Shown here in pieces: positions 45,605 to 57,687 of a DNA stretch of 64,000 nt. Position 1 is the stretch's first letter, and each line of letters opens with the position of its first letter. The position numbers were made by a program, and so were the translations under genes. The DNA is from Salinibaculum litoreum. Its GTDB lineage: Archaea; Halobacteriota; Halobacteria; Halobacteriales; Haloarculaceae. Below the pieces are notes generated by a model that saw only the letters and a list, made by a program, of their open reading frames with translations, made no database searches and was not told where the DNA came from. Where the stretch lies: assembly GCA_009789175.1 (NCBI GenBank), contig CP046866.1, forward strand, positions 186,001-250,000. The letters run 5' to 3'.

Positions 45605-46540
45605 TCAGACCTCGGCTTCGAGGTCGTCCCGCACTGCGTCGAGGAACCGGTCGGGGTGTTCGACGTGGGGTAACAGGAGGGCCTCGTCGAAGACGACCAG
45701 CCCCGTATCGCCTTCTTTGGCGAGTTCCCGGCCATCGTCCAGTGGCGTGATGTCGGCCTCACGGCCCCAGATGAGCGTCACCGGGCTGTCGAGGTCTGCG
45801 AGCACATCCCCAAGGTTCTCGTCGGGGTCGAGAAAGCCGCTGAGGAAGGAAGCAGGGGCAAAGCGAGCGCCGGACTGGTGGGCCGACTGCCACTCGTAGT
45901 CGACTACGTCATCGGGGAGGTTCTCGGTATCGTAGTAGCCGTGGTCGTCGTGGAAGTACCGCAGGCCCGGCTTGCTGGTGACGAGGTTGTGAAGCCCCTG
46001 CCCGACCACCGGCGCACGCATGAGTGCGCGCAGCCAGACCCGGCGGCCACCCATGGACGTATCCGTCGGCGTGATGAGGACGAGTTCGTCCACTTCGACT
46101 GTCCGGGCTGCTATCGCGGCGTAGGACCCCGTCAGCGAGGACGCGACGACGACCGGCGGCTCGTCGGCCAGGTCCTCGATGGCGTCCCCGACGAAGGTCG
46201 TATACAGCGATGCCGAGTACAGCAGTGGCGGCCGGTCGGAGTGCCCGAAGCCGGGCAGGTCGACGGCGACGACGTGGTAATCTTCCGCGAGGTCCTCAAA
46301 GACCTGCCAGAATTCGTGGCTGGACCCGGCGGCGTTGATGCCGTGAAAGAGCAACAGGTCCTGGTCTTCGGGGTCGCCGGCCTCGGTGTAAGCCACATCG
46401 AATCCGCGCCAGCGATAGGTGCCGTACTCGCCGTCGAGATACGGCTCGAAGTCGCTGCTGCGAGCGGTCAGCAGACGGTTGGCGACCGCGGTGAGACCGA
46501 CAGTCCCTGCCGCGACGCCGAATACGTTCCGGAGCTTCAT
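45605..46540 (-). CDS. Alpha/beta hydrolase
   Basis: 311 residues. LLFHGINAAGSSHEFW is the oxyanion HG region; VVASSLTGSYAAIA holds the nucleophile-elbow Ser (a GxSxG variant with Ser-Ser-Leu-Thr-Gly). GFGHSDRPPLLYSA is another family element. Begins with an N-terminal hydrophobic stretch MKLRNVFGVAAGTVGLTAVANRLL (possible membrane anchor). Substrate unknown; it flanks the copper cluster but has no evident link. Confidence 0.88.
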   Translation of the reverse strand: MKLRNVFGVAAGTVGLTAVANRLLTARSSDFEPYLDGEYGTYRWRGFDVAYTEAGDPEDQDLLLFHGINAAGSSHEFWQVFEDLAEDYHVVAVDLPGFGHSDRPPLLYSASLYTTFVGDAIEDLADEPPVVVASSLTGSYAAIAARTVEVDELVLITPTDTSMGGRRVWLRALMRAPVVGQGLHNLVTSKPGLRYFHDDHGYYDTENLPDDVVDYEWQSAHQSGARFAPASFLSGFLDPDENLGDVLADLDSPVTLIWGREADITPLDDGRELAKEGDTGLVVFDEALLLPHVEHPDRFLDAVRDDLEAEV

Positions 46541-46609: not shown

Positions 46610-47416
46610 TCACGACCGCCAGGCCAGCACCGCCGCGAGGACGAGAGCGCCGACCAGCCAGCCGACCAGACCGAGCGTGCTGGTCACCACCGCCGGACCC
46701 GTCGGGACAGAGAGCCCGGCCGGTGCGAGCGCGAGGCCGAACACCAGACTCCGATAGGCGCTGGCGGGGCTGACAGCCAGCAAGACATCGACGCCGCCCG
46801 GTGAGACTGCGCCGCCCATGAGGGCGGCGATGAGCGTGCTGTCGAGTCCGACGACCAGTGCGAGCACTGCGACCGTGGCGAGTGCCAACCCGCTGCGGGT
46901 CGACCGGGCTGCCGCGGAGACGAGCACCGCAACCGCTAGCACGACAAGCGCGAACGCGGCCGTCAGGACGACGTACCGGAGATATAGCGCCGGTGAGTCG
47001 ACGGTCCCGTGGGAGGCGATAACGGACAGTTGCTCGCTCTCTGCAAGCGGTACGAACACCGCAGCGACGAGCAATCCGAGCAGGACAACCGCGAGGACGG
47101 CGACCGCTCGCCCGAGGTAGACGCCGAGGACGTAGCGGGTGCTGTTTATCGGATAGGTCCGCAGCGTCTCCAGTTCGCCCCGCTCGCGGTCGCCGAGAAT
47201 CGAGCGATAGCCGACGGCGAAGGCAAACACCGGGACGAGCACCTCGACCGGCGTGAGGAGGTCATAGATGAGCGCGAGGTATGCCCCCGAGGAACCCAGC
47301 CAGGACAGCCCCGCCAGCAGGAGCACGAACCCGGCGCTCAAAAGCAGGAGCATCCGCGTCCGGAGGACCGTCAGGAACTCCCGCTGTGCCACGTCTAACA
47401 CGTAGCGGTTACTCAC
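46610..47416 (-). CDS. nosY: NosY-like ABC-2 permease of the nos cluster
   Basis: 268 residues and about six TM helices. The motif DRERGELETLRTYPINSTRYVLGVYLGR is the NosY coupling region. Start GTG at 47416 is chosen because GGAGGTG lies 6 nt upstream in the mRNA; the GTG at 47425 falls inside that Shine-Dalgarno sequence. It overlaps nosF by 8 nt. NosFY-type transporters move a sulfur or copper-related substrate for maturation of nitrous-oxide reductase in bacteria. Confidence 0.87.
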   Translation of the reverse strand: MSNRYVLDVAQREFLTVLRTRMLLLLSAGFVLLLAGLSWLGSSGAYLALIYDLLTPVEVLVPVFAFAVGYRSILGDRERGELETLRTYPINSTRYVLGVYLGRAVAVLAVVLLGLLVAAVFVPLAESEQLSVIASHGTVDSPALYLRYVVLTAAFALVVLAVAVLVSAAARSTRSGLALATVAVLALVVGLDSTLIAALMGGAVSPGGVDVLLAVSPASAYRSLVFGLALAPAGLSVPTGPAVVTSTLGLVGWLVGALVLAAVLAWRS

Positions 47417-48182
47417 TCTTCCCACCTCCCTGGAGGCCGGCCGAGACGCCGATTGCGTCGTCTGTCAGCTCTGTGAGTACGTCTTCGAGGGTTTCGCCGC
47501 CGACTTCCTCGACGAGCGCTGTCGGCGCATCGGCCGCGACCACTTCGCCGTCGGAGAGGACCAGCACCTTGTCGGCGACGCGCTCGACCGACCGGAGGTC
47601 GTGGGTAGCCAGTACCACGCCGACACCCTCGTCGGCGATGTCGGCGGTCGTGTCGATGATGTGGCGTGTCATCGTCGGGTCGAGACCGCTTGTGGGTTCG
47701 TCGAGTACCAGCACACGCGGGTCGCCGATGGTCGTCTGGGCGACCGCGAGCAGACGGAGCATCCCGCCGGAGAGTGCGTCGACTCGGCGGTCCGCGACCG
47801 CGGTCAGTCCCACCCGGTCCAGAACCGCGTCCACGTCGGTCTCGGTCTCGACCAGCGAACTGTAGAACGCGAGTGTCTCGCGGACGGTAAACTGCGCCCG
47901 GAACTCCGGTTGCTGTGCGAGATAGCCGACTGCGCGGTCGCCGTTTGCTGCAACCTCGATTGTCCCCTCGTCCGGGTCGAGCAGGCCGGCAATCAATCGT
48001 AGCAGCGTCGTCTTGCCGGACCCGTTGGGGCCGATGAGACAGGCGACTGTTCCTGCGTCGATGCGTGCGGTGACCTCGCTGAGGACATCGACATCGCCAA
48101 AGGAGTGTGCGACTTCCGTGATGTCGACGGCCGACTGCTCGTCCGGTGTCGTTTGTCGTGTCTGTGGTGTCTGTGAACTCAT
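47409..48182 (-). CDS. nosF: NosF-like ABC transporter ATPase
   Basis: 257 residues. Walker A GPNGSGKTTL, signature DALSGGMLRLLAVAQ, Walker B VLVLDEPTSGLDP and switch His in VVLATHDLRSVE. N-terminus is Thr/Gln-rich. Its ATG overlaps nosD's stop by 4 nt, and nosY overlaps its end, so nosD-nosF-nosY are translationally coupled. Supplies energy for the NosY transporter. Confidence 0.93.
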   Translation of the reverse strand: MSSQTPQTRQTTPDEQSAVDITEVAHSFGDVDVLSEVTARIDAGTVACLIGPNGSGKTTLLRLIAGLLDPDEGTIEVAANGDRAVGYLAQQPEFRAQFTVRETLAFYSSLVETETDVDAVLDRVGLTAVADRRVDALSGGMLRLLAVAQTTIGDPRVLVLDEPTSGLDPTMTRHIIDTTADIADEGVGVVLATHDLRSVERVADKVLVLSDGEVVAADAPTALVEEVGGETLEDVLTELTDDAIGVSAGLQGGGKSE

Positions 48183-50086
48183 CGTGCCTCCGTAGAGACG
48201 TTCAGTGCGTCGAGTCGGTCGGGGTGGACCGGCTCGGAGAGCGGTGCTGTGTCGACGATGCTCGACGGTCGCAATCCGGGAACGCTCCGCTGGAAGGCCC
48301 GGAGGCCACCGAGTGTCGGAGCCTGGGCCAGCGTACGCGCGCCGATGGAGTCCCCGGCACTCCTGTCGACGGTGTCCGAGGGACGGTAGGTTCGGTCGAC
48401 GACGCCGTCCCCGTCGCGGTCGATACCGGGGATTGGACCCCAGTAGTTACCGCGACCGCCGACAGTCCAGATGTTCAGCGTTCCCAGGTCGGTCTTCACC
48501 GGCTGGTCGTTGGCCACGATGTCGTTTCCGGTCACGTCGTTGGTCGGCAACAGGGTCGCCGAGCGGACGCCGACCTCGTTTCGTACTGCCGTATTGTTGT
48601 GGACGACCGACCGGCTCATCCCAATCGAGAGCCCGATGTCGTTGTCGACTGCGACGTTCTCGGTCATCCATGAGGCTGCCCCGACAGTGATGACACCCAC
48701 GTCGTTGCCCCGGAGGTGGTTGCCGACGATGGCGTTGCCGGTGGGACGGGTCATCAGGATGATGCCGACGTTGGACTGCCTGATAGTGTTGTTCAGCACC
48801 AGGGCGTCGCTGGTGTACATCTGGTGGACGCCGTAGCGCATGTTCTGCATCCGGTTGTCCCGGACGACAAGCCCGTTCGAGTAGTGGGTGTAGACGGCGT
48901 CGCGGCCGCCGTCGAATGTGGAGTCCTCGACGACCATCCGGGAGTACATCGCCAGCACGCCCATCGACCCCTCTTCCCACGTGTCGCTGCCCTGCAGGTC
49001 GATGTCCCTGACGACCGTTCCGGTGCTGTTGTGGACGATGACCCCGTTTGCCGATGTCTCGACGGAGACGTTCTCGACCAGCGACCGGGGTGCCTCCGAG
49101 AGCCTGATGGCGGCATCCCCGCGGCCGTAGACGAGTTCGATAGACTTGTCCCACGACGTCTCCCCGTCCGTGCTGGGTGAGCCGAGTTCGGTGTCACCCA
49201 CTCCGGTGACACGGAGCGACTCGATGCCGACCCGCGGTGCCGTCGCTCGCACCACGGTCCCCTCTCCGCGGCCGTCGAGTACCGTTCGGTTGCCCGCCCC
49301 GCTGAGCGTCACCGACTTCGAGACGTTCAGGTCCACTGTGTACCGCCCTGCCGGGATTTCGACGGCCGTATTCGGCGGGGCCTGCTCGATGGCGGCCTCG
49401 ATGGTTTCTGCGTCCTCGCCGACGGTGACCGAGACCGGGCGGTCGAGCGTCTCCCGGGCCCGCTCGACACTCTCGTTTGCCCACTGCTGGCGTTGTTCTG
49501 TCGGGGCGTTGAGTCGGTCCGCGCTTTCGTTGCCCGTCGTCGGCTGGCGCTCTTTGAGCGTCTCCCAGTCGACGATTTCGCCGTCGTACTCCTCGGCGAA
49601 GGCCGCTGCGGCGTCGCGGTCACCGAAGGGGACGGCGGTCGGACCGCCCGGGGTCCGTGCCGGCGTCTCGATGACGAAATACACGTCTTCGGCGCGCGTC
49701 CAGGTCTGTGCTGCGCTGTTCGAGAGCCTGAGATACTGGCCGTCGGTCAGCGTGGGATTGGTCCCGGTGTAGTCGGTCACGTAGATACCGAGTGGCTCGC
49801 CGAACTGCTCTGTGTATCGTTGTTGGGTCGCCCCGCGGACGAGGCTGTCCGTCCCGTAGAACCCGACGACGTACTGGTACTGGCCGTAGAACACCTGTCC
49901 CTTGGGGATGGCGTAGTCTTTCTCCTCGGCCTGCTGGATGTCGACCCCGGTCAACCCTGATTTGAGTGTCTGGTCGAACGGCACCGGCGAAAACTGCTCT
50001 TCCCCGGCCGGAGCCGACGTGAAGCCACTCGCGGCAACGAGCAACACCGCTACGACCACGAGTCCGACGAGTGTCACTGTTCTCAT
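48179..50086 (-). CDS. nosD: NosD-like beta-helix protein with an N-terminal NosL-like domain
   Basis: 635 residues. Signal-like N-terminus (MRTVTLVGLVVVAVLLVAASGFTSA). Residues ~45-200 resemble NosL without its cysteines (YGTDSLVRGATQ..., GIYVTDYTG, FGDRDAAAAFAEEYDGEIVDW). Residues ~230 onward form right-handed parallel beta-helix (CASH) repeats rich in Asn and Val. NosD-type proteins are extracytoplasmic maturation factors for copper enzymes. The domain order NosL-like plus NosD is unusual relative to the separate bacterial genes. It starts 6 nt after nosL. Confidence 0.9.
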   Translation of the reverse strand: MRTVTLVGLVVVAVLLVAASGFTSAPAGEEQFSPVPFDQTLKSGLTGVDIQQAEEKDYAIPKGQVFYGQYQYVVGFYGTDSLVRGATQQRYTEQFGEPLGIYVTDYTGTNPTLTDGQYLRLSNSAAQTWTRAEDVYFVIETPARTPGGPTAVPFGDRDAAAAFAEEYDGEIVDWETLKERQPTTGNESADRLNAPTEQRQQWANESVERARETLDRPVSVTVGEDAETIEAAIEQAPPNTAVEIPAGRYTVDLNVSKSVTLSGAGNRTVLDGRGEGTVVRATAPRVGIESLRVTGVGDTELGSPSTDGETSWDKSIELVYGRGDAAIRLSEAPRSLVENVSVETSANGVIVHNSTGTVVRDIDLQGSDTWEEGSMGVLAMYSRMVVEDSTFDGGRDAVYTHYSNGLVVRDNRMQNMRYGVHQMYTSDALVLNNTIRQSNVGIILMTRPTGNAIVGNHLRGNDVGVITVGAASWMTENVAVDNDIGLSIGMSRSVVHNNTAVRNEVGVRSATLLPTNDVTGNDIVANDQPVKTDLGTLNIWTVGGRGNYWGPIPGIDRDGDGVVDRTYRPSDTVDRSAGDSIGARTLAQAPTLGGLRAFQRSVPGLRPSSIVDTAPLSEPVHPDRLDALNVSTEAR

Positions 50087-50092
50087 CTGTGC

Positions 50093-50767
50093 TTACTGGC
50101 TCGCGAGTTGCTGGATAGTCGTCTCGGAGACATCCTCGAAGGCCACGACCTGTCCCCCGTGTTCGGACTCGAACGCCTCCGCGTCGCCCTGTTCGGAGAA
50201 GCCGATGAGGTCTTTCCCCATCGCGCCCTTGACGTTCGAGCCCGCGACGAACGTCACATCGGTTGCGTCGGTGAAGGCCTCGCTCTCGACGTGTGCAGAG
50301 ATGAGCGTGTCACCGGCGTCGGTTAGGAGTTCGTACTCGACCGTCGAGTAGTCCGTGACGTAAAACGCCTGTCGCTCCCAGCCCCGGTTGTCACGCTTGA
50401 AATCGTATTTGAACGCTTCCCACGTGCTACAAAACCGCGCCGGGTTCTCGTGGTCCGAGGGCTGTTCGTCCGCGTAGAACACCTCGGCGCTCGGGCCGGG
50501 GTGGTTCGGAATCACCATCCCACAGATATCACAGCTATGCTCCTGTGTCAGGGTAATCGGGTCGGGCTGTGCAGTCGTCTCGTCGCCGCCGACGAGACCA
50601 CCACCGTCGGAGTCGAGACAGCCTGCCAGCCACGCCGCTATCCCGACTCCACCCGCTACGGCCGCCCGTCGTGTGAGTCCCACCTCGCTCCGTGACTGCC
50701 CGCGACCGTCGCTTTCCATCGACTGGTCGTGCTCACACGCTGCACAACTGTGGTCCTCTGTGCACAT
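50093..50767 (-). CDS. nosL: NosL-like copper-chaperone lipoprotein
   Basis: 224 residues. Tat-lipoprotein signal (LTRRAAVAGGVGIAAWLAGC50) is preceded by a Cys-rich 20-residue extension, MCTEDHSCAACEHDQS. The mature domain has the copper-binding CDICGM (C79, C82, M84), then ENPARFCSTW and AFKYDF typical of NosL. It transfers Cu(I) to copper enzymes, known for nitrous-oxide reductase in bacteria. A shorter start at M17 (50719) would remove the Cys-rich extension. First gene of the nosLDFY operon. Confidence 0.93.
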   Translation of the reverse strand: MCTEDHSCAACEHDQSMESDGRGQSRSEVGLTRRAAVAGGVGIAAWLAGCLDSDGGGLVGGDETTAQPDPITLTQEHSCDICGMVIPNHPGPSAEVFYADEQPSDHENPARFCSTWEAFKYDFKRDNRGWERQAFYVTDYSTVEYELLTDAGDTLISAHVESEAFTDATDVTFVAGSNVKGAMGKDLIGFSEQGDAEAFESEHGGQVVAFEDVSETTIQQLASQ

Positions 50768-50980: not shown

Positions 50981-51394
50981 TTACTGGTACTGTGCGATGG
51001 TGTTTGCCAGGGCGTCCTTGTCCTGGACACCGACCAGTCGTTCGACGGGTTCGCCGTCGGCAAACAGTATCAGTGTCGGGACGCCCTGGACGCCGTACTC
51101 TCTCGCGAGTGGCTGGTTCGCGTCCACGTCGACTTTCGCCACGGCTGCGTCGGTGTCGGCGGCGAGGTCGGTGACGACCGGTTCGAGCATCTTGCAGGGG
51201 CCACACCAGTCCGCGTAGAAGTCGACGAGCACGACATCGTACTGCTCGGTTGCCTCTGTCAGCTCGTCCGTGCCGCTTACGTGAATCGGTTCGGCCGGCG
51301 TATCCCCAGCCCCGGTTGCCGGGGACTCTCTTTCCATGAGCTGCTCTCGCTTTCGCTGTCGGATGTCCTCCAGTGACTCCTCGTCACTCATCAT
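50981..51394 (-). CDS. Thioredoxin
   Basis: 137 residues. An N-terminal ~35-residue acidic extension precedes a complete thioredoxin domain with the active site ADWCGPCKM and cis-Pro GVPTLILF. No signal peptide, so it is cytoplasmic and can reduce the CcdA protein encoded upstream. A second ATG lies one codon downstream (51391). The TATA box at 51418-51427 gives it its own promoter at 27 nt. Confidence 0.94.
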   Translation of the reverse strand: MMSDEESLEDIRQRKREQLMERESPATGAGDTPAEPIHVSGTDELTEATEQYDVVLVDFYADWCGPCKMLEPVVTDLAADTDAAVAKVDVDANQPLAREYGVQGVPTLILFADGEPVERLVGVQDKDALANTIAQYQ

Positions 51395-51416
51395 CCGAGG
51401 GTAAGGGCTCACCGCA

Positions 51417-51427
51417 CTTATAATTTT
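51417..51427 (-). promoter_or_regulatory. TATA box of trx
   Basis: The minus strand reads AAATTATAAGT about 27 nt upstream of the ATG at 51394, within the 64-nt gap after ccdA. Confidence 0.55.
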
Positions 51428-51458
51428 GTGAAAAGCGCACAATACTGGATATGCGGTG

Positions 51459-52136
51459 TCACGAGAACGTCGGCACCATCTCCGGCGCGACGGCCACGAC
51501 GACCTGTCCGACGCCGGCACCAATCAGGACGACCCCGGCGGCCCGTTTCAGGTGGCTGCCGTAGGCGGTGAGTCGTCCCAGCGTCGCGTCGACGCCCAAC
51601 CCGATACCGAGGGTCAGTCCCAGCATGCCGACTGCCACGCTTCCCGCGTAGGCAGCCACGACGAGGGCTGCCGCCGAGACTGACAGCGTGAGTGCCTGGA
51701 CGACGACTCCCAGAAATACCGGCAGTGTACAGCCCGCTGCTGCGCCAGCGTACCCGACGCCAAACAGCGCGAACCCACCGACATCGGCGCGACGCTCCGG
51801 CAGCGGGAGCGTCCAGTTTGGCCCCTGTCCCGTCAGCACGACCGCCCCGAGTGCGACCAGCGCGACACCGACGAGTGGCTCGACGACCGACAGGGACCGG
51901 ACGATGGGTCGTCCCACGAGGACGGCCCCGCCGGCAAGGGCCACGAGCGTCACCACGATGCCCGCGGCCACCCCGATGCCCCGAACCAGCAGCCCCGTCC
52001 GCTGGCGGTCGGTGTCGGTCGCCGAGACGTAATAACCCACATAGCCCGGGACAAGCGGGAGCGCACACGGCGACAGAAGCGTCGCCACGCCGGCACCGAC
52101 TGCAAAGGCAAGACTCCCCGCGAGGCCGCCGCTCAC
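51459..52136 (-). CDS. CcdA-like thiol-disulfide transport protein
   Basis: 225 residues, six TM helices, redox cysteines in SPCALPLVPGYVGYY and AGCTLPVFLG. GTG start at 52136 overlaps the stop codon of the TlpA gene (GTGA), so the two are coupled. Upstream in-frame codons are within tlpA and lack the family sequence. Carries electrons from cytoplasmic thioredoxin (gene just downstream) to the exported TlpA. Parallels the pair at 19666-20917. Confidence 0.92.
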   Translation of the reverse strand: MSGGLAGSLAFAVGAGVATLLSPCALPLVPGYVGYYVSATDTDRQRTGLLVRGIGVAAGIVVTLVALAGGAVLVGRPIVRSLSVVEPLVGVALVALGAVVLTGQGPNWTLPLPERRADVGGFALFGVGYAGAAAGCTLPVFLGVVVQALTLSVSAAALVVAAYAGSVAVGMLGLTLGIGLGVDATLGRLTAYGSHLKRAAGVVLIGAGVGQVVVAVAPEMVPTFS

Positions 52137-52669
52137 GCCTGTTCCCCCGTCGTCTCCCGGACCGCCTCGACGATTCTGTCCGTGTTTATCTCGCCGGTGT
52201 GTGACCACGCCACCGACCCGTCAGGACGGATGAGGAGTGCCGTTGGCACGCTAGTCGCATCGTATCGCTGTGCCAGTGCCGTTCCGTCGTCGACACCGAT
52301 AGGCCACGAGCCACCGTGGTCGTCCCACCACGACGCGACCTCCGACCGGGAGACAGTGTACCCGACCGGCTGGCTGGTCACCGAGAGAAACTGCACCTCC
52401 GACCCCACAGTCTCGTGTGCCTCGGCGAGTGTGTCCATCTGGCCCTCACAGACCGAACACGTCGTCGCAAAGAACTCGACGAACGACACCTGGCTCTCGG
52501 CCGGAACCGTCGCCGTCCCTCCGTCGCTTCCTGGCGCGTCGAGGAGGTCGACCGTAATCGGGTCCTGCCCGTCGCCGGCCTGTGTCGACCCGGTCGGTGA
52601 CCCGCTGCAGCCGGCACTCGCGACGACTGCCGTGCCGGCGAGTGTCCGCAGCAGGTCACGCCGGCGCAT
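52133..52669 (-). CDS. TlpA-like thioredoxin-fold lipoprotein
   Basis: 178 residues from the ATG at 52669. The Shine-Dalgarno GGAGGTGA ends 5 nt before it; an in-frame GTG at 52678 would leave no spacer. Tat-lipoprotein signal MRRRDLLRTLAGTAVVASAGC. Thioredoxin fold with CxxC active site in TTCSVCEGQMDTL and cis-Pro TSVPTALLI. It sits in the order sco, safE, tlpA, ccdA, trx on one strand, fitting a chain that supplies reductant for copper-site assembly. Confidence 0.93.
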   Translation of the reverse strand: MRRRDLLRTLAGTAVVASAGCSGSPTGSTQAGDGQDPITVDLLDAPGSDGGTATVPAESQVSFVEFFATTCSVCEGQMDTLAEAHETVGSEVQFLSVTSQPVGYTVSRSEVASWWDDHGGSWPIGVDDGTALAQRYDATSVPTALLIRPDGSVAWSHTGEINTDRIVEAVRETTGEQA

Positions 52670-52681
52670 ACCACTCACCTC

Positions 52682-53470
52682 CTACCATGGCTGGACGTGT
52701 GGTAGCGGGATGGCCGGCAGCGCGATACCCAGTGCTGCGAGCCCGTGCTGGAGCGGGATGTACCCGAGCACGAGGAAGGCAACCCCGAGCGCGCGGTGAA
52801 GCGTCCGTCGGCCGCCGATATCGACCGAGGTGAACACCGTTCCGGTGAGGAACACGGCCGGGATGGTTCCCAGTCCGAGCGCGCCGAGGGCTGTGGCCCC
52901 GCCCAGTGCCGACCCCTGGATGAACGCATAGAGATACGCTGGATACAACAGCGGACACGGCAACACGCCGTGGACGGCTCCCAGACCGACGATACGGGAG
53001 TCGTTCACCCAGGCGTCGACCCGTGGGAGCAACTGCCGGTGGACGGTGCTGCTGATGCGGTCGACACCCGGTACGGAGAGGTCCCGGCCCGCTCCGCCCA
53101 TTGCGTAGCTGACACCGACACCGCCGACGACCAGCCCGACGCCGATGCCCGAGATGGCGTGGATGTCGGTCGCGACCATCGTCACCTGGCGCATGCTGAG
53201 GAAGACGAGTTCGCCCGCGAGACCGAACAGCCCGCCGATGACCGCGTAACTCGCCGTTCGACCGACGTTGAACAGCACCTGCTGGCGTACCTCCCACAGC
53301 GTGAGCACCGACTCGCGTGCGTCCGCTTCCAGGCGGTCGGCGTAGGTTGCTACCAGCGGGCCACACATGCCGATACAGTGTGCGCCCCCGAACAGCCCCA
53401 CGAGCGCCAGTACCGGGAGGCCAAGCGTCTCCGTTCCGAGCAGCGGGTTGGCTGGTGTACATGAACTCAT
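52682..53470 (-). CDS. SafE/TauE-like membrane protein with H-C-x-x-M-C motif
   Basis: 262 residues, about seven TM helices. GGAHCIGMCGP (H31, C32, M35, C36) is the signature of the sulfite-exporter-family subgroup linked to cytochrome oxidase and copper assembly. Its ATG overlaps the stop of the SCO gene (1 nt). The motif could bind copper in the membrane. Function inferred from context and family, not shown. Confidence 0.85.
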   Translation of the reverse strand: MSSCTPANPLLGTETLGLPVLALVGLFGGAHCIGMCGPLVATYADRLEADARESVLTLWEVRQQVLFNVGRTASYAVIGGLFGLAGELVFLSMRQVTMVATDIHAISGIGVGLVVGGVGVSYAMGGAGRDLSVPGVDRISSTVHRQLLPRVDAWVNDSRIVGLGAVHGVLPCPLLYPAYLYAFIQGSALGGATALGALGLGTIPAVFLTGTVFTSVDIGGRRTLHRALGVAFLVLGYIPLQHGLAALGIALPAIPLPHVQPW

Positions 53471-54165
53471 CAGTACGCATCGACGACTGTTTTGGTGTCG
53501 GACAGCACTTGCTCATGGTCGGGGGTGTCGGTCCGGTAGGCCCGTTCGACGATACCGTCCGGGTTACGCAGGAACGTCAACGAGAGGTGCGTGAAATCAT
53601 AGCCGGGTAGCCGACCCGACTCGCCGGCCCCCACGCGGTCGTAGGTGATGCCGAGTTTCCCCTCGACGACTTCCTCCGCGCGCTCTGGCGATTGCGGGCG
53701 CAGGAAGTGCCAGTTCCCTGCGTCCATGTCGATGTTCATCCTGTCGCCGTACTCCCGCAGCGCCGCTGCGTCGTCGCGTTCGGGGTCGAAAGTGATTGCG
53801 AGGAAGGTCACCTCGTCCGCGATGCCGTCTTCGACAGTCCCCTGCTGGACGCCCGCAAGCTGAGTGATGAGGTTGAGACACTCCTCCGGACAGGTGGCGA
53901 AAAACCCCGTCACGAGCAGCGTCTTCTCGATGTCACGCGTGTCGATTTGCTCCCCCGAGAGGGGGTCCGGGAGGGCAAAATCCGGCAGCGCCTGTCCGTG
54001 GGCGGGGTAGGGAATGTCCTCGCTGTCGAACTGCCGGTCCTCCGGCGGTTCGAGGACTGGCTCGGCATCCGTTTCGGAGTCGGTCCCGAAGACGGTCTGC
54101 AGACACCCCGCCGTCGCAGCGATACTCCCGATACCGACCGTGCTGAGGAACGCCCGTCTCTCCAT
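53470..54165 (-). CDS. SCO1/SenC family copper chaperone lipoprotein
   Basis: 231 residues. Tat-lipoprotein signal RRAFLSTVGIGSIAATAGC21. Thioredoxin-like fold with TCPEEC (C92, C96) and His193 in DFTHLSLTF, which is the full SCO copper-binding triad. SCO proteins deliver copper to or reduce the Cu(A) site of cytochrome oxidase or other exported cuproenzymes. First gene of the minus-strand set sco-safE-tlpA-ccdA-trx, divergent from the tandem NosL gene (107-nt gap). Confidence 0.95.
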   Translation of the reverse strand: MERRAFLSTVGIGSIAATAGCLQTVFGTDSETDAEPVLEPPEDRQFDSEDIPYPAHGQALPDFALPDPLSGEQIDTRDIEKTLLVTGFFATCPEECLNLITQLAGVQQGTVEDGIADEVTFLAITFDPERDDAAALREYGDRMNIDMDAGNWHFLRPQSPERAEEVVEGKLGITYDRVGAGESGRLPGYDFTHLSLTFLRNPDGIVERAYRTDTPDHEQVLSDTKTVVDAY

Positions 54166-54272
54166 CAGTCGAAGCTATGGCGGGTAGTGAGGTAAGCGGT
54201 CTGGTGCGGTCGTCGAAATACTCCGAGAGTCGCACCAGACCGGTTTTGGTGGCTGCTTCGGTAGGATTGCAT

Positions 54273-55340
54273 ATGCCGACAGGAGACCGATTCGCGGTCG
54301 GCCGGCGGACAGTCCTCACAATGCTCGGTACTGCGGCGTCGGTGTCTCTCGCAGGTTGTAGTGGTGACGACGACGGCGAAGGCGACGGTGGGGACGGTGG
54401 CACGTCGACTCCGACCCCGACCGAGGGCGAGCAAAACGATGGAACTGACGGGAATCAGGATGCAGTCGAGATTTCCGAGGATGCCAGCTGTGCGGTCTGT
54501 GGGATGACCGCCGCCAACTTCCCCAAGTGGAACGGCAAGGTGCGCCACGAGGACGACACCGAGGCGTCCTTCTGTACGTCCGGCTGTGCAACGACCTATT
54601 ATGCGGTGCCCGAGCAGTTCGCCGAGACGGACGCCGCTATCAGCGACTTGTGGGTAACCGGCTTCGAGAGCGGCGAGTTCATCGACGGGATGGACGCCGC
54701 CTACGCGCTGGAGACCGACTCCGACCGGGTGGACGACCCGATGCGGCTCAACCCCGCACCCTTCGCCGACCGGGCGGACGCCGTCGCGTACGTCGACGCG
54801 GTGGAGTACCTCACCGAAGACGACGTCGTCGAGCTATCGGCCTTCGACCGTGAGCTGGCCGAGCAGTACCGCGGGATGCATCTGGAACCGACCGACGAGG
54901 ACACACGGGCCGCAGTCGAGGTTCCGGAGGACGCCAGCTGTGCGGTCTGTGGGATGACCGCCGCCAACTTCCCCGAGTGGAACGGACAGGCGGTCCACGC
55001 CGACGACACGCGGGCGTATTTCTGCTCGTCCGGCTGTGCGACGACCTACCATGCTGTACCCGACGAGTTCGCGGAGACCGATGCCGACATCGCTGGCCTC
55101 TGGGTGACCGGCTTCGAGAGCGGCGAGTTCATCGATGGGACGGACGCCTCCTACGCGCTGGAGACGGACTCGGAGCGAGTCGACGACCCCATGGGGACCA
55201 ACCCGGCACCGTTTGCCGACCGTGCGGACGCCGTCGCGTACGTCGACGCGGTGGAGTACCTCACCGAAGACGACGTCGTCGAGCTATCGGCCTTCGACCG
55301 CGAGCTGGCCGAGCAGTACCGCGGGATGCACCTCGGTTAG
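54273..55340 (+). CDS. Lipoprotein with two tandem NosL domains
   Basis: 355 residues. A Tat signal (VGRRTVLTMLGTAASVSLAGC29) and a Gly/Asp/Thr-rich linker precede two copies of a ~150-residue NosL domain. Each has CAVCGMTAANFP (C73, C76, M78 and C223, C226, M228) plus a second pair in SF/YFC.SGCATTY (C101, C105 and C251, C255). The copies are nearly identical, some at DNA level (see repeat entry). It could chaperone two copper ions. Divergent to sco, overlaps the regulator gene by 4 nt at its 3' end. The ATG at 54273 follows CAT without clear Shine-Dalgarno. Confidence 0.95.
   Translation: MPTGDRFAVGRRTVLTMLGTAASVSLAGCSGDDDGEGDGGDGGTSTPTPTEGEQNDGTDGNQDAVEISEDASCAVCGMTAANFPKWNGKVRHEDDTEASFCTSGCATTYYAVPEQFAETDAAISDLWVTGFESGEFIDGMDAAYALETDSDRVDDPMRLNPAPFADRADAVAYVDAVEYLTEDDVVELSAFDRELAEQYRGMHLEPTDEDTRAAVEVPEDASCAVCGMTAANFPEWNGQAVHADDTRAYFCSSGCATTYHAVPDEFAETDADIAGLWVTGFESGEFIDGTDASYALETDSERVDDPMGTNPAPFADRADAVAYVDAVEYLTEDDVVELSAFDRELAEQYRGMHLG
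54480..55331 (+). repeat. Internal tandem duplication of a 450-nt NosL-domain unit
   Basis: The two domain copies are exactly 450 nt apart. From 54774 to 54850 (77 nt) the DNA is identical to 55224-55300. One synonymous change follows, then 29 more identical bases. Silent sites have therefore not diverged in this part, in contrast to the first third of each unit. Confidence 0.92.
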
Positions 55341-55849
55341 CCGTAGAAACTGGCGTCGACGAGTCGGGTGAACCGGTCGACGAGTTTGTCCGGCAGCGAG
55401 GGGCTGACCTCGCTCAGTAACGCCCGCACTTCGTCAGGTCTGGTGATACGAACGTGTGCCCGACCCTGCGCGTCGTACTCTTTTTCGGCAACGCCGGCCT
55501 CGACCAGCGTCGAGACGTGCCAGGACACCGTCGACCGCGCCACGTCGAGTTCCTCGGTGAGTTCAGTCGCCGAAATCCGCTCCGCGTCGAGTGCGCGGAC
55601 GATGACCTCTCGCGCGGTCTCGCGTCGCAGTAACGCGATAACGCGGCGCTCCCAGGCGTCGTATCCCGTCGTGAAGTAATGCGTGCGCCCGCGGAGTCGC
55701 TCGGCGTCGAGTCGGTCCGCGTCGAGCAGCCTGTCGATGTGGTACTGGGCCTGCCCCGTCGCCACATCCAGTGTCCGGACGAGTTCGTTGAAGTGTACCC
55801 CCGGGTGCGTGTCGACGTGTTGTCTGATTTGCTTCCTCGCGTCGCTCAT
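55337..55849 (-). CDS. Double winged-helix transcriptional regulator
   Basis: 170 residues. The first winged-helix (residues ~1-65: HPGVHFNELVRTLDVATGQAQYHIDRL) and the second (~85-150: AERISATELTEELDVARSTVSWHVSTLVEAGVAEKE) both have recognition helices. The C-terminal tail SLPDKLVDRFTRLVD is helical. Tandem ArsR/MarR-like domains are common in haloarchaeal regulators. The gene sits convergent to the NosL tandem gene and may regulate the copper island. TATA box 29 nt upstream. Confidence 0.9.
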   Translation of the reverse strand: MSDARKQIRQHVDTHPGVHFNELVRTLDVATGQAQYHIDRLLDADRLDAERLRGRTHYFTTGYDAWERRVIALLRRETAREVIVRALDAERISATELTEELDVARSTVSWHVSTLVEAGVAEKEYDAQGRAHVRITRPDEVRALLSEVSPSLPDKLVDRFTRLVDASFYG

Positions 55850-55912: not shown

Positions 55913-56236
55913 CTACGTCCCCTCGGCGGCTGGTGGTCCTGCCTGGTACAGCGCATACAGGACAAGCGTCGCCACGCCCACGTCGGAACCGTGCTCGACG
56001 AGGTGATGAACCGGCATGGGGACGAGTCCAAGCGCGGTCCCGAAGCCGACGACCGACCGCGCCACGAGCAAGGCGAGTGCCACCGTCAACAGCATGTAGG
56101 TTGTCGTCCGCCGGCGGCGGTAGCCGACCACCCCCACGAGAAACAGCGCCGCCGTCGTCACTGTCGCCAGCGCGAGTACGACCAGCAACGCCACTGCTTC
56201 TATCCCGCTCACCCACTCGCCGACAGCCTGGAACAT
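55913..56236 (-). CDS. Small membrane protein next to the regulator
   Basis: 107 residues, three TM helices (residues ~12-36, 46-68, 83-100). The sequence MFQAVGEWVSGIEAVALLVVLALATVTTAALFLVGVVGYRRR is typical of small haloarchaeal membrane proteins that sit next to winged-helix regulator genes (possibly DUF7521, from memory). It shares strand with the regulator downstream (63-nt gap), suggesting a regulator/membrane partner pair. Confidence 0.75.
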   Translation of the reverse strand: MFQAVGEWVSGIEAVALLVVLALATVTTAALFLVGVVGYRRRRTTTYMLLTVALALLVARSVVGFGTALGLVPMPVHHLVEHGSDVGVATLVLYALYQAGPPAAEGT

Positions 56237-56640: not shown

Positions 56641-57687
56641 TCACTCTTCGCGTTGTTCGAGACACTCCGCAATCGGTTCGAGCAGTTCATCGGAGACGGC
56701 GTAGGGGTCTATCTCCTTCGAGCGTACGCGCCCGACGTAAGCATCGAGTCCGCCCTGGCGGTCGATTTCCTGCTCTAGCAACCCACGAACATCCTCCTGC
56801 AGCAAGGTCCGAATCTCCTCGGCATAGCGCATCCGCTCCTGTTCGGCGAGTTCGCCGCTGTCGGCGAGGTGTTCGCGGTGGTCGGCGAGAACCTCCAGTA
56901 CGTCGTCGACGCCCTCGCCTTTGTTTGCGACTGTCTCGACGATGGGCGGGTGCCACCGCTGCTCGGGGGGGTCACCCGATTCAGGTTGCTCGAAGCCGTC
57001 ACCGCTCCCGGCAGCACCGTGGTGGCCTACTGTCGCGGGGACGCCGCCGTCCCGGTACTCCAGCATTTCCTTGAGTTCCTGAACGGTCCGGTCAGCACCG
57101 TCGAGGTCGGCCTTGTTGACGATAAAGAGGTCAGCGATTTCGAGAATCCCGGCCTTGAGCATCTGGACATCGTCGCCGCTGCCCGGCGGGACCAGCACGC
57201 CGACTGTATCGGCAGTCTTGACGATATCTATCTCGTTCTGGCCGGCACCCACCGTCTCGATGATGATTTTGTCCTTGCCAAAGGCATCGAGTGCTTTCAC
57301 GGCGTCCGTCGTGGCCGTCGAGAGGCCGCCCAGCGTGCCCCGTGCGGACATCGAGCGGAAAAAGACCTCCATGTCGCCGACGTTTGACCCCATGCGAATG
57401 CGGTCGCCCAGGACGGCCCCGCCGGTGAAGGGCGAAGAGGGGTCGATGGCGATAACCCCGACCGTGAGGCCCTGCTCGCGGTAGGCAGCGGCCATTTTGT
57501 CGACGAGTGTCGATTTCCCGGCACCGGGGCTGCCGGTGATGCCGATGACATCCGCATCGCCGGTGTGTTCGTGGAGCTGTGAGACGAGTTCTCGATAGCC
57601 CGCCTGGCGGTTCTCGATTTTCGTTATCGTGCGTGCGAGCGCGCGGTGTTTCCCCGCGAGTAGCTCGTCGATGAGATTCCCACTCAT
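56641..57687 (-). CDS. meaB: Methylmalonyl-CoA mutase-associated GTPase MeaB
   Basis: 348 residues. Walker A GITGSPGAGKSTLVDK (about 50-65). The segment IETVGAGQNEIDIVKTADTVGVLVPPGSGDDVQMLKAGILEIADLFIVNKADLDGADR contains the G3 and NKxD motifs of the G3E family. Known to gate cobalamin loading and protect the mutase. Followed upstream by the B12-binding mutase subunit (28-nt gap) on the same strand. The long acidic insertion near residue 240 (GDGFEQPESGDPPEQ) is not usual in bacterial homologues. Confidence 0.95.
   Translation of the reverse strand: MSGNLIDELLAGKHRALARTITKIENRQAGYRELVSQLHEHTGDADVIGITGSPGAGKSTLVDKMAAAYREQGLTVGVIAIDPSSPFTGGAVLGDRIRMGSNVGDMEVFFRSMSARGTLGGLSTATTDAVKALDAFGKDKIIIETVGAGQNEIDIVKTADTVGVLVPPGSGDDVQMLKAGILEIADLFIVNKADLDGADRTVQELKEMLEYRDGGVPATVGHHGAAGSGDGFEQPESGDPPEQRWHPPIVETVANKGEGVDDVLEVLADHREHLADSGELAEQERMRYAEEIRTLLQEDVRGLLEQEIDRQGGLDAYVGRVRSKEIDPYAVSDELLEPIAECLEQREE

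Follow-up and report, generated by a model that had tools for sequence, protein, structure and literature searches.

A NosZ-free NosLDFY island with thiol-redox and Sco genes in Salinibaculum litoreum, and its candidate copper clients

Introduction

NosL has been described as a chaperone dedicated to the CuZ site of one enzyme. In a stretch of DNA from the haloarchaeon Salinibaculum litoreum (class Halobacteria; contig CP046866.1, positions 186,001 to 250,000), nosL stands with nosD, nosF and nosY beside genes for thiol reduction and copper handling. We refer to this whole stretch of 64,000 nucleotides (nt) as the window, and describe here the copper and thiol-redox island within it.

Several parts of such an island are known from other organisms, in sources cited here and below for the excerpts available. 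The CXM motif of NosL has been proposed as a Cu(I) site (PMC6530538). In Bradyrhizobium, TlpA reduces both ScoI and COX II (PMC6696091), and Sco and TlpA act at the CuA sites of oxidases in bacteria (PMC6696091, PMC7558416). The occurrence of nosDFY without nosZ is already published: it was noted for Bacillus azotoformans (PMC3475470), and nosFY in the absence of nosZ is recorded for H. volcanii (PMC9240420, citing Zumft and Kroneck), the NosD of which is HVO_0892 (PMC8241124). For the NosD of H. mediterranei, NosL and NosD domains are both listed (PMC9240420). In the open-licence literature, we found no paper linking haloarchaeal NosDFY to oxidase assembly, nor, in the excerpts available, any mention of the ligand loss, the separate fusion class, the co-occurrence with ba3-type oxidase or the Sco/SafE synteny described below.

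On balance, we favour a reading in which the island, independently of NosZ, combines thiol reduction with copper insertion for exported cuproproteins; CuA oxidases would be the likeliest clients.

Results

The nosD gene of the island (48179..50086, minus strand) encodes, in one open reading frame of 635 amino acids, a NosL-fold domain (residues ~31-183) followed by the NosD beta-helix (residues ~217-627). Pfam places both domains in it (PF05573 and PF05048, the latter above cut-off), and the match to TIGR04247 reaches 221 bits, under the cut-off of 300. The beta-helix of a full-length AlphaFold model (30 sequences, pLDDT 88.4) matches the NosD of the NosDFYL complex (7osf_A; Z 41.5, rmsd 3.9, 365 residues aligned). 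The VIA-align rows for this model cover mostly residues 217-626 and the fused domain does not show there, so the N-terminal part was folded alone. The best resulting model (pLDDT 91.8; the other four of five gave 46.7-68.1) matches the copper chaperone NosL (7og7; Z 14.8, rmsd 2.6, 131 aligned), and a sequence profile of the domain matches NosL 2hpu (E=9e-8). No CXM motif was found in the first 190 residues of any of the 96 fusion NosD homologues (0/96), and Gly or Ala occupies the position aligned with the second conserved Met of NosL. The domain fused to NosD thus has the NosL fold but not its known motif of Cu(I) ligands.

The remaining partners of a NosDFYL complex adjoin nosD on the same strand. 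A NosF-like ATP-binding cassette (ABC) ATPase (47409..48182; PF00005, 102 bits) and a NosY-like ABC-2 permease (46610..47425; PF12679, 51 bits, above cut-off) follow with overlaps of 4 nt (nosD/nosF) and 17 nt (nosF/nosY). On the other side, 6 nt from nosD, a stand-alone NosL lipoprotein (50093..50767; PF05573, 147 bits) carries the Cu(I) motif CXXCXM, here CDICGM at residue 79. The motif is kept in 66/72 stand-alone NosL matches beside fusion nosD genes, some of these being one gene in overlapping loci, and is missing in 3/7 NosL matches at nosZ loci. Two nosZ-linked NosL genes (L123:9322-9885, with DDQGGM, and L131:9652-10206, with DDLGGM) have lost the Cys residues of CXXCGM though NosZ is present.

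The genome that holds the window has no convincing match to any of the three NosZ models used: TIGR04244 gave E=4e-4 only, NF052460 (L-NosZ) E=6e-4 only, and TIGR04246 picked up no more than fragments of the cupredoxin domain, at two COX2 genes and at the NirK gene. An alternative type of NosZ as client was ruled out, L-NosZ being above cut-off in 0/116 genomes of the class and clade II NosZ being absent from the window genome. With its NosZ client absent from both genome and cluster, the locus does not qualify as a nitrous oxide reductase maturation system.

In the same 116 genomes, NosZ is patchy (above cut-off in 39), and fusion NosD is about twice as common (96 genes in 79 genomes, with G018, in which the gene is in split fragments, not counted as fusion-bearing). 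Both proteins occur in 31 genomes, fusion NosD only in 48, NosZ only in 8 and neither in 29 (p=0.09). Fusion NosDs cover residues 1-635 of the window query at 35-49% identity, whereas nosZ-linked NosDs cover only the beta-helix (~220-623) at 26-32% identity, and a tree separates the two with full support (midpoint root, quick method). Where fusion NosD and nosZ share a genome, none of 37 pairs lies within 20 kb; in the distance counts, hand-rounded start points were used for the fusions of G095:C20, G091, G107, G025 and one of the G049 copies. Fusion NosD is a haloarchaeal class apart from nosZ-linked NosD.

Upstream of nosL, also on the minus strand, lie five genes (50981-54165), transcribed in the order sco, safE-like, tlpA, ccdA, trx, and followed by nosL, nosD, nosF and nosY. 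The junctions are tight between sco and safE (1-nt overlap), safE and tlpA (12 nt) and tlpA and ccdA (4-nt overlap), and wider between ccdA and trx (64 nt) and trx and nosL (213 nt). A sequence-only reading of this DNA had placed the five genes on one strand with gaps or overlaps of 1-12 nt for all but trx, and had described them as flanked by nosLDFY on one side and by a tandem-NosL lipoprotein and a regulator on the other; genes, strand, order, spacing and flanks all proved to be as described.

The role in reduction or copper insertion that it gave to each family member is supported by catalytic or copper-ligand residues, which are kept in every one. The Sco lipoprotein (53470..54165; PF02630, 47 bits) has the CxxxC motif (CPEEC) and distal His of Sco/SenC proteins, with C92, C96 and H193 invariant in 19/19 sequences, and its family profile matches solved Sco1 (E=3.6e-13). 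The label 'safE-like' needs correcting to DsbD_2 (PF13386, 148 bits against a cut-off of 24.9) for a membrane protein (52682..53470) in whose family H31, C32, C36 (HCxGMC) and C172 are invariant in 15/15. The TlpA/ResA-like lipoprotein thioredoxin (CSVC; 52133..52669) matches PF08534 and PF00578 above cut-off and falls below cut-off for the NCBIfam ResA/StoA models. Because the Pfam scan gave no match for the window CcdA (51459..52136; PF02683 was found in 2/12 family members, this one not among them), the protein is identified as CcdA through its family profile only, which matches solved CcdA 5vkv (E=2e-13); this kinship, and Cys24 and Cys136, invariant in 12/12 aligned sequences of this membrane protein, mark it as a CcdA-type thiol-electron carrier. 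The thioredoxin (50981..51394; PF00085, 96 bits) has the motif CGPC and no evident signal peptide. A second Sco-TlpA-CcdA unit, 36-45% identical to that of the window, lies on a 316-kb contig of the same genome (L185:8305-10186 on C2).

We then asked which genes lie within 8 kb of the 96 fusion genes, the window included; the counts are lower bounds, as some loci stop at contig ends. NosF is present at 92, NosY at 91 and NosL at 77 loci, followed by the helix-turn-helix (HTH) regulator (41), DUF7471 (36), Sco (28), SafE (24), any thioredoxin (11), the NosL2 type (10), CcdA (7) and TlpA (7). At nine nosZ control loci, Sco, the HTH regulator and DUF7471 were each found at 0/9 and SafE at 1/9. 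The Sco/SafE neighbourhood of fusion NosD is more than chance. In 77 named loci, drawn from the best 80 of 215 relatives and overlapping the 116-genome sample, of which they are not independent, Sco and SafE each occur at 23, TlpA and CcdA at 3, and thioredoxin at 3.

Gene order points the same way. The nearest named relatives of the window organism belong to Halorientalis, where H. pallida and H. persicus share the order DUF7471-HTH-NosL2-Sco-SafE-(NosL)-NosD-NosF-NosY at 55-71% identity; a NosL match between SafE and NosD is present in H. pallida and was not found there in H. persicus. Halorussus halobius has HTH-Sco-SafE-TlpA-CcdA-NosD-NosF-NosY. The neighbour counts and these orders together show that the block is real, with trx as its weakest part. 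The synteny in other genera, whose absence would have told against the sequence-only reading, is thus present, but its 'complete pathway' does not hold as a unit: all ten partners occur together at only 1/96 loci, that of the window (G095 lacks NosL only), and trx is not conserved. The island is real and conserved, but it is no standard fixed pathway. The earlier interpretation had also missed that NosZ is absent, that NosD is fused to a NosL domain devoid of ligands, and that ba3 oxidase is the closest correlate.

Fusion NosD co-occurs strongly with ba3 oxidase: in the 116 genomes, 72 have both, 7 the fusion only, 10 ba3 only and 27 neither (odds ratio 27.8, p=4e-12), and the counts by genus majority are 25, 2, 3 and 16 (p=1.2e-7). 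The corresponding numbers for NirK are 49, 30, 11 and 26 (p=0.001). Fusion gene and ba3 oxidase are at most 20 kb apart in 7 cases against ~1.2 expected. The oxidase directly adjoins nosD in Natronoglomus (L234) and is near nosD in Haloarcula salina (L239); in two genomes (G054 and G066), ba3 is part of the cluster itself, which also comprises a Cu-ATPase, NosL, Sco and SafE and has the fusion at one of its ends, G054 additionally having CcdA and TlpA. In clade B of the fusion NosDs (67 genes), ba3 is present in 56/56 genomes. No tight ba3 link was found for clade A, which holds the window NosD. In the window genome, the ba3 genes have DUF7546, another SafE paralogue and a Cu P-type ATPase directly alongside, at ~1.53 Mb of C1 (L118:6124-13027); the genome contains one more COX2 oxidase gene, and a NirK gene at C1:69339.

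Beyond sco lie the further flanking genes. The tandem NosL lipoprotein (54273..55340, plus strand; PF05573, 103 bits in two stretches) has two CXXCXM domains (CAVCGM at residues 73 and 223), its gene containing two 300-nt copies that are 83% identical and 450 nt apart. It runs tail to tail, with a 4-nt overlap, into the gene for an HVO_0163-type double-HTH regulator (55337..55849, minus strand; PF24266, 118 bits; HTH_20). After this, on the upstream side of the island, comes a small DUF7471 protein, probably a membrane protein (55913..56236, minus strand; PF24283, 102 bits). A scan of the locus with a sigma-70 promoter model, unsuited to archaea, and for terminators found none above shuffled sequences. 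An alpha/beta hydrolase gene (45605-46540) and a GTPase gene (56641-57687), which we take to be of the MeaB/ArgK family, lie further out.

Some loci are of interest in their own right. Hydrolase and GTPase genes also border the clade A nosLDFY clusters of several Haloarculaceae, a conserved chromosomal site. In Halorientalis pallida (L190:6368-20279), a second nosLDFY cluster faces the first tail to tail, the hydrolase gene lying between them, and the window holds the counterpart of the first only (61% vs 48%). Several NosL2-type matches stand in a row near fusion NosD at L249, L252 and L265 (Natronolimnohabitans, Natribaculum). A contig filed under a bacterial metagenome-assembled genome (Nitriliruptoraceae, L251) carries a haloarchaeal-type NosD-NosF-NosY, probably a binning error.

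Discussion

From the observed gene content, motifs, NosD folds, absence of NosZ, synteny and ba3 co-occurrence, we infer an electron route, a docking step and a client. Electrons would pass from cytoplasmic thioredoxin through CcdA to the lipoprotein TlpA, which would keep Sco and the client copper sites reduced at their Cys pairs. NosL and the tandem NosL may keep Cu(I) outside the membrane at their CXXCXM sites, and the NosDFY machine may aid the loading of the client in the way that NosDFYL serves N2O reductase. The NosL-fold domain of NosD, without copper ligands, is probably a docking adaptor. The clients of the window island would most likely be the CuA/CuB sites of haem-copper oxidases, ba3 among them; the bacterial action of Sco and TlpA at CuA sites (PMC6696091, PMC7558416) favours a client of that kind. 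More tentatively, it is possible that haloarchaea repurposed NosDFYL as a maturase for oxidase copper sites, with the fused copper-free NosL look-alike as a permanent docking adaptor and with Sco, TlpA and CcdA supplying reduced thiols.

Several points weigh against the favoured reading. Clade A has ba3 in 15/22 genomes against 67/94 of the others (p=0.80), and it tracks NirK better, with NirK in 18/22 (odds ratio 5.6, p=0.002). One genome, G079, has a clade A Sco-TlpA-CcdA-NosLDFY cluster and neither ba3 nor NirK. The ba3 oxidase of the window genome lies 1.3 Mb from the island, beside its own SafE and Cu-ATPase. In Halosimplex carlsbadense (L237, outside the 116-genome sample), a fusion cluster lies ~6 kb from nosZ. 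The co-occurrence of the fusion with ba3 is corrected for kinship only by the collapsing of genera. Because clade A does not track ba3, the client of the window island is a matter of inference.

The clients of the window's clade could instead be mainly the copper nitrite reductase NirK, together with halocyanins, so that the island would be a copper supply linked to denitrification. The clade A association and the NirK gene of the window genome speak for this; nevertheless, NirK is missing from four genomes of the clade (G048, G076, G079 and G095), and a NirK-like match lies within 8 kb at only 1/96 loci, with 31% identity. To our knowledge, moreover, NirK copper sites hold no Cys pair that would require reduction of the TlpA/Sco type, which we count against this account, and we consider it unlikely. 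We also doubt that the island is one for copper and oxidative-stress homeostasis, in which copper storage or buffering and thiol repair under an ArsR-like repressor would serve no single client. Such a role would suit the several Cu(I)-type sites, including the two tandem NosL domains, and the increase of HVO_0163 protein under hypochlorite in H. volcanii (PMC10294847), but the window cluster has no Cu-efflux ATPase, and the linkage of Sco and TlpA with ba3 suggests assembly rather than detoxification. That the nos genes are a relic of nosZ loss that now does nothing specific is very improbable and was rejected as the principal account: the patchiness of nosZ and its absence from the window genome would fit, but the fusion genes form a separate, intact class with twice the frequency of NosZ and 0/37 pairs within 20 kb of each other, and NosZ occurs without the fusion in eight genomes.

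If copper insertion independent of NosZ is indeed the function of a widespread class that follows the oxidase, the NosDFYL machine would be general and not dedicated to NosZ. This would explain how archaea load CuA and CuB sites on the outer side of the membrane, and surveys that take nosD or nosDFY as a sign of N2O reduction would be using a poor marker.

The island can be compared with known systems. With CcoI/CcoGHIS, which assembles cbb3 oxidase, it shares a Cu P-type ATPase by ba3 in G054, G066 and the window genome; it differs in that the oxidase client is of ba3 type and the window cluster is without an ATPase. The TlpA-ScoI-COX II scheme of Bradyrhizobium japonicum likewise has a membrane TlpA-like thioredoxin and a Sco with CxxxC...H; that scheme uses PCuAC, a place that NosL and NosDFY may fill here (PCuAC was not searched for). 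The bacterial NosDFYL complex (7osf, 7o0y, 7znq) has the same NosD beta-helix fold, ABC ATPase, ABC-2 permease and CXXCXM NosL; in the haloarchaeal island, by contrast, there is no NosZ, NosD carries a ligand-less NosL-fold domain, and the machine is coupled to Sco, SafE, TlpA and CcdA.

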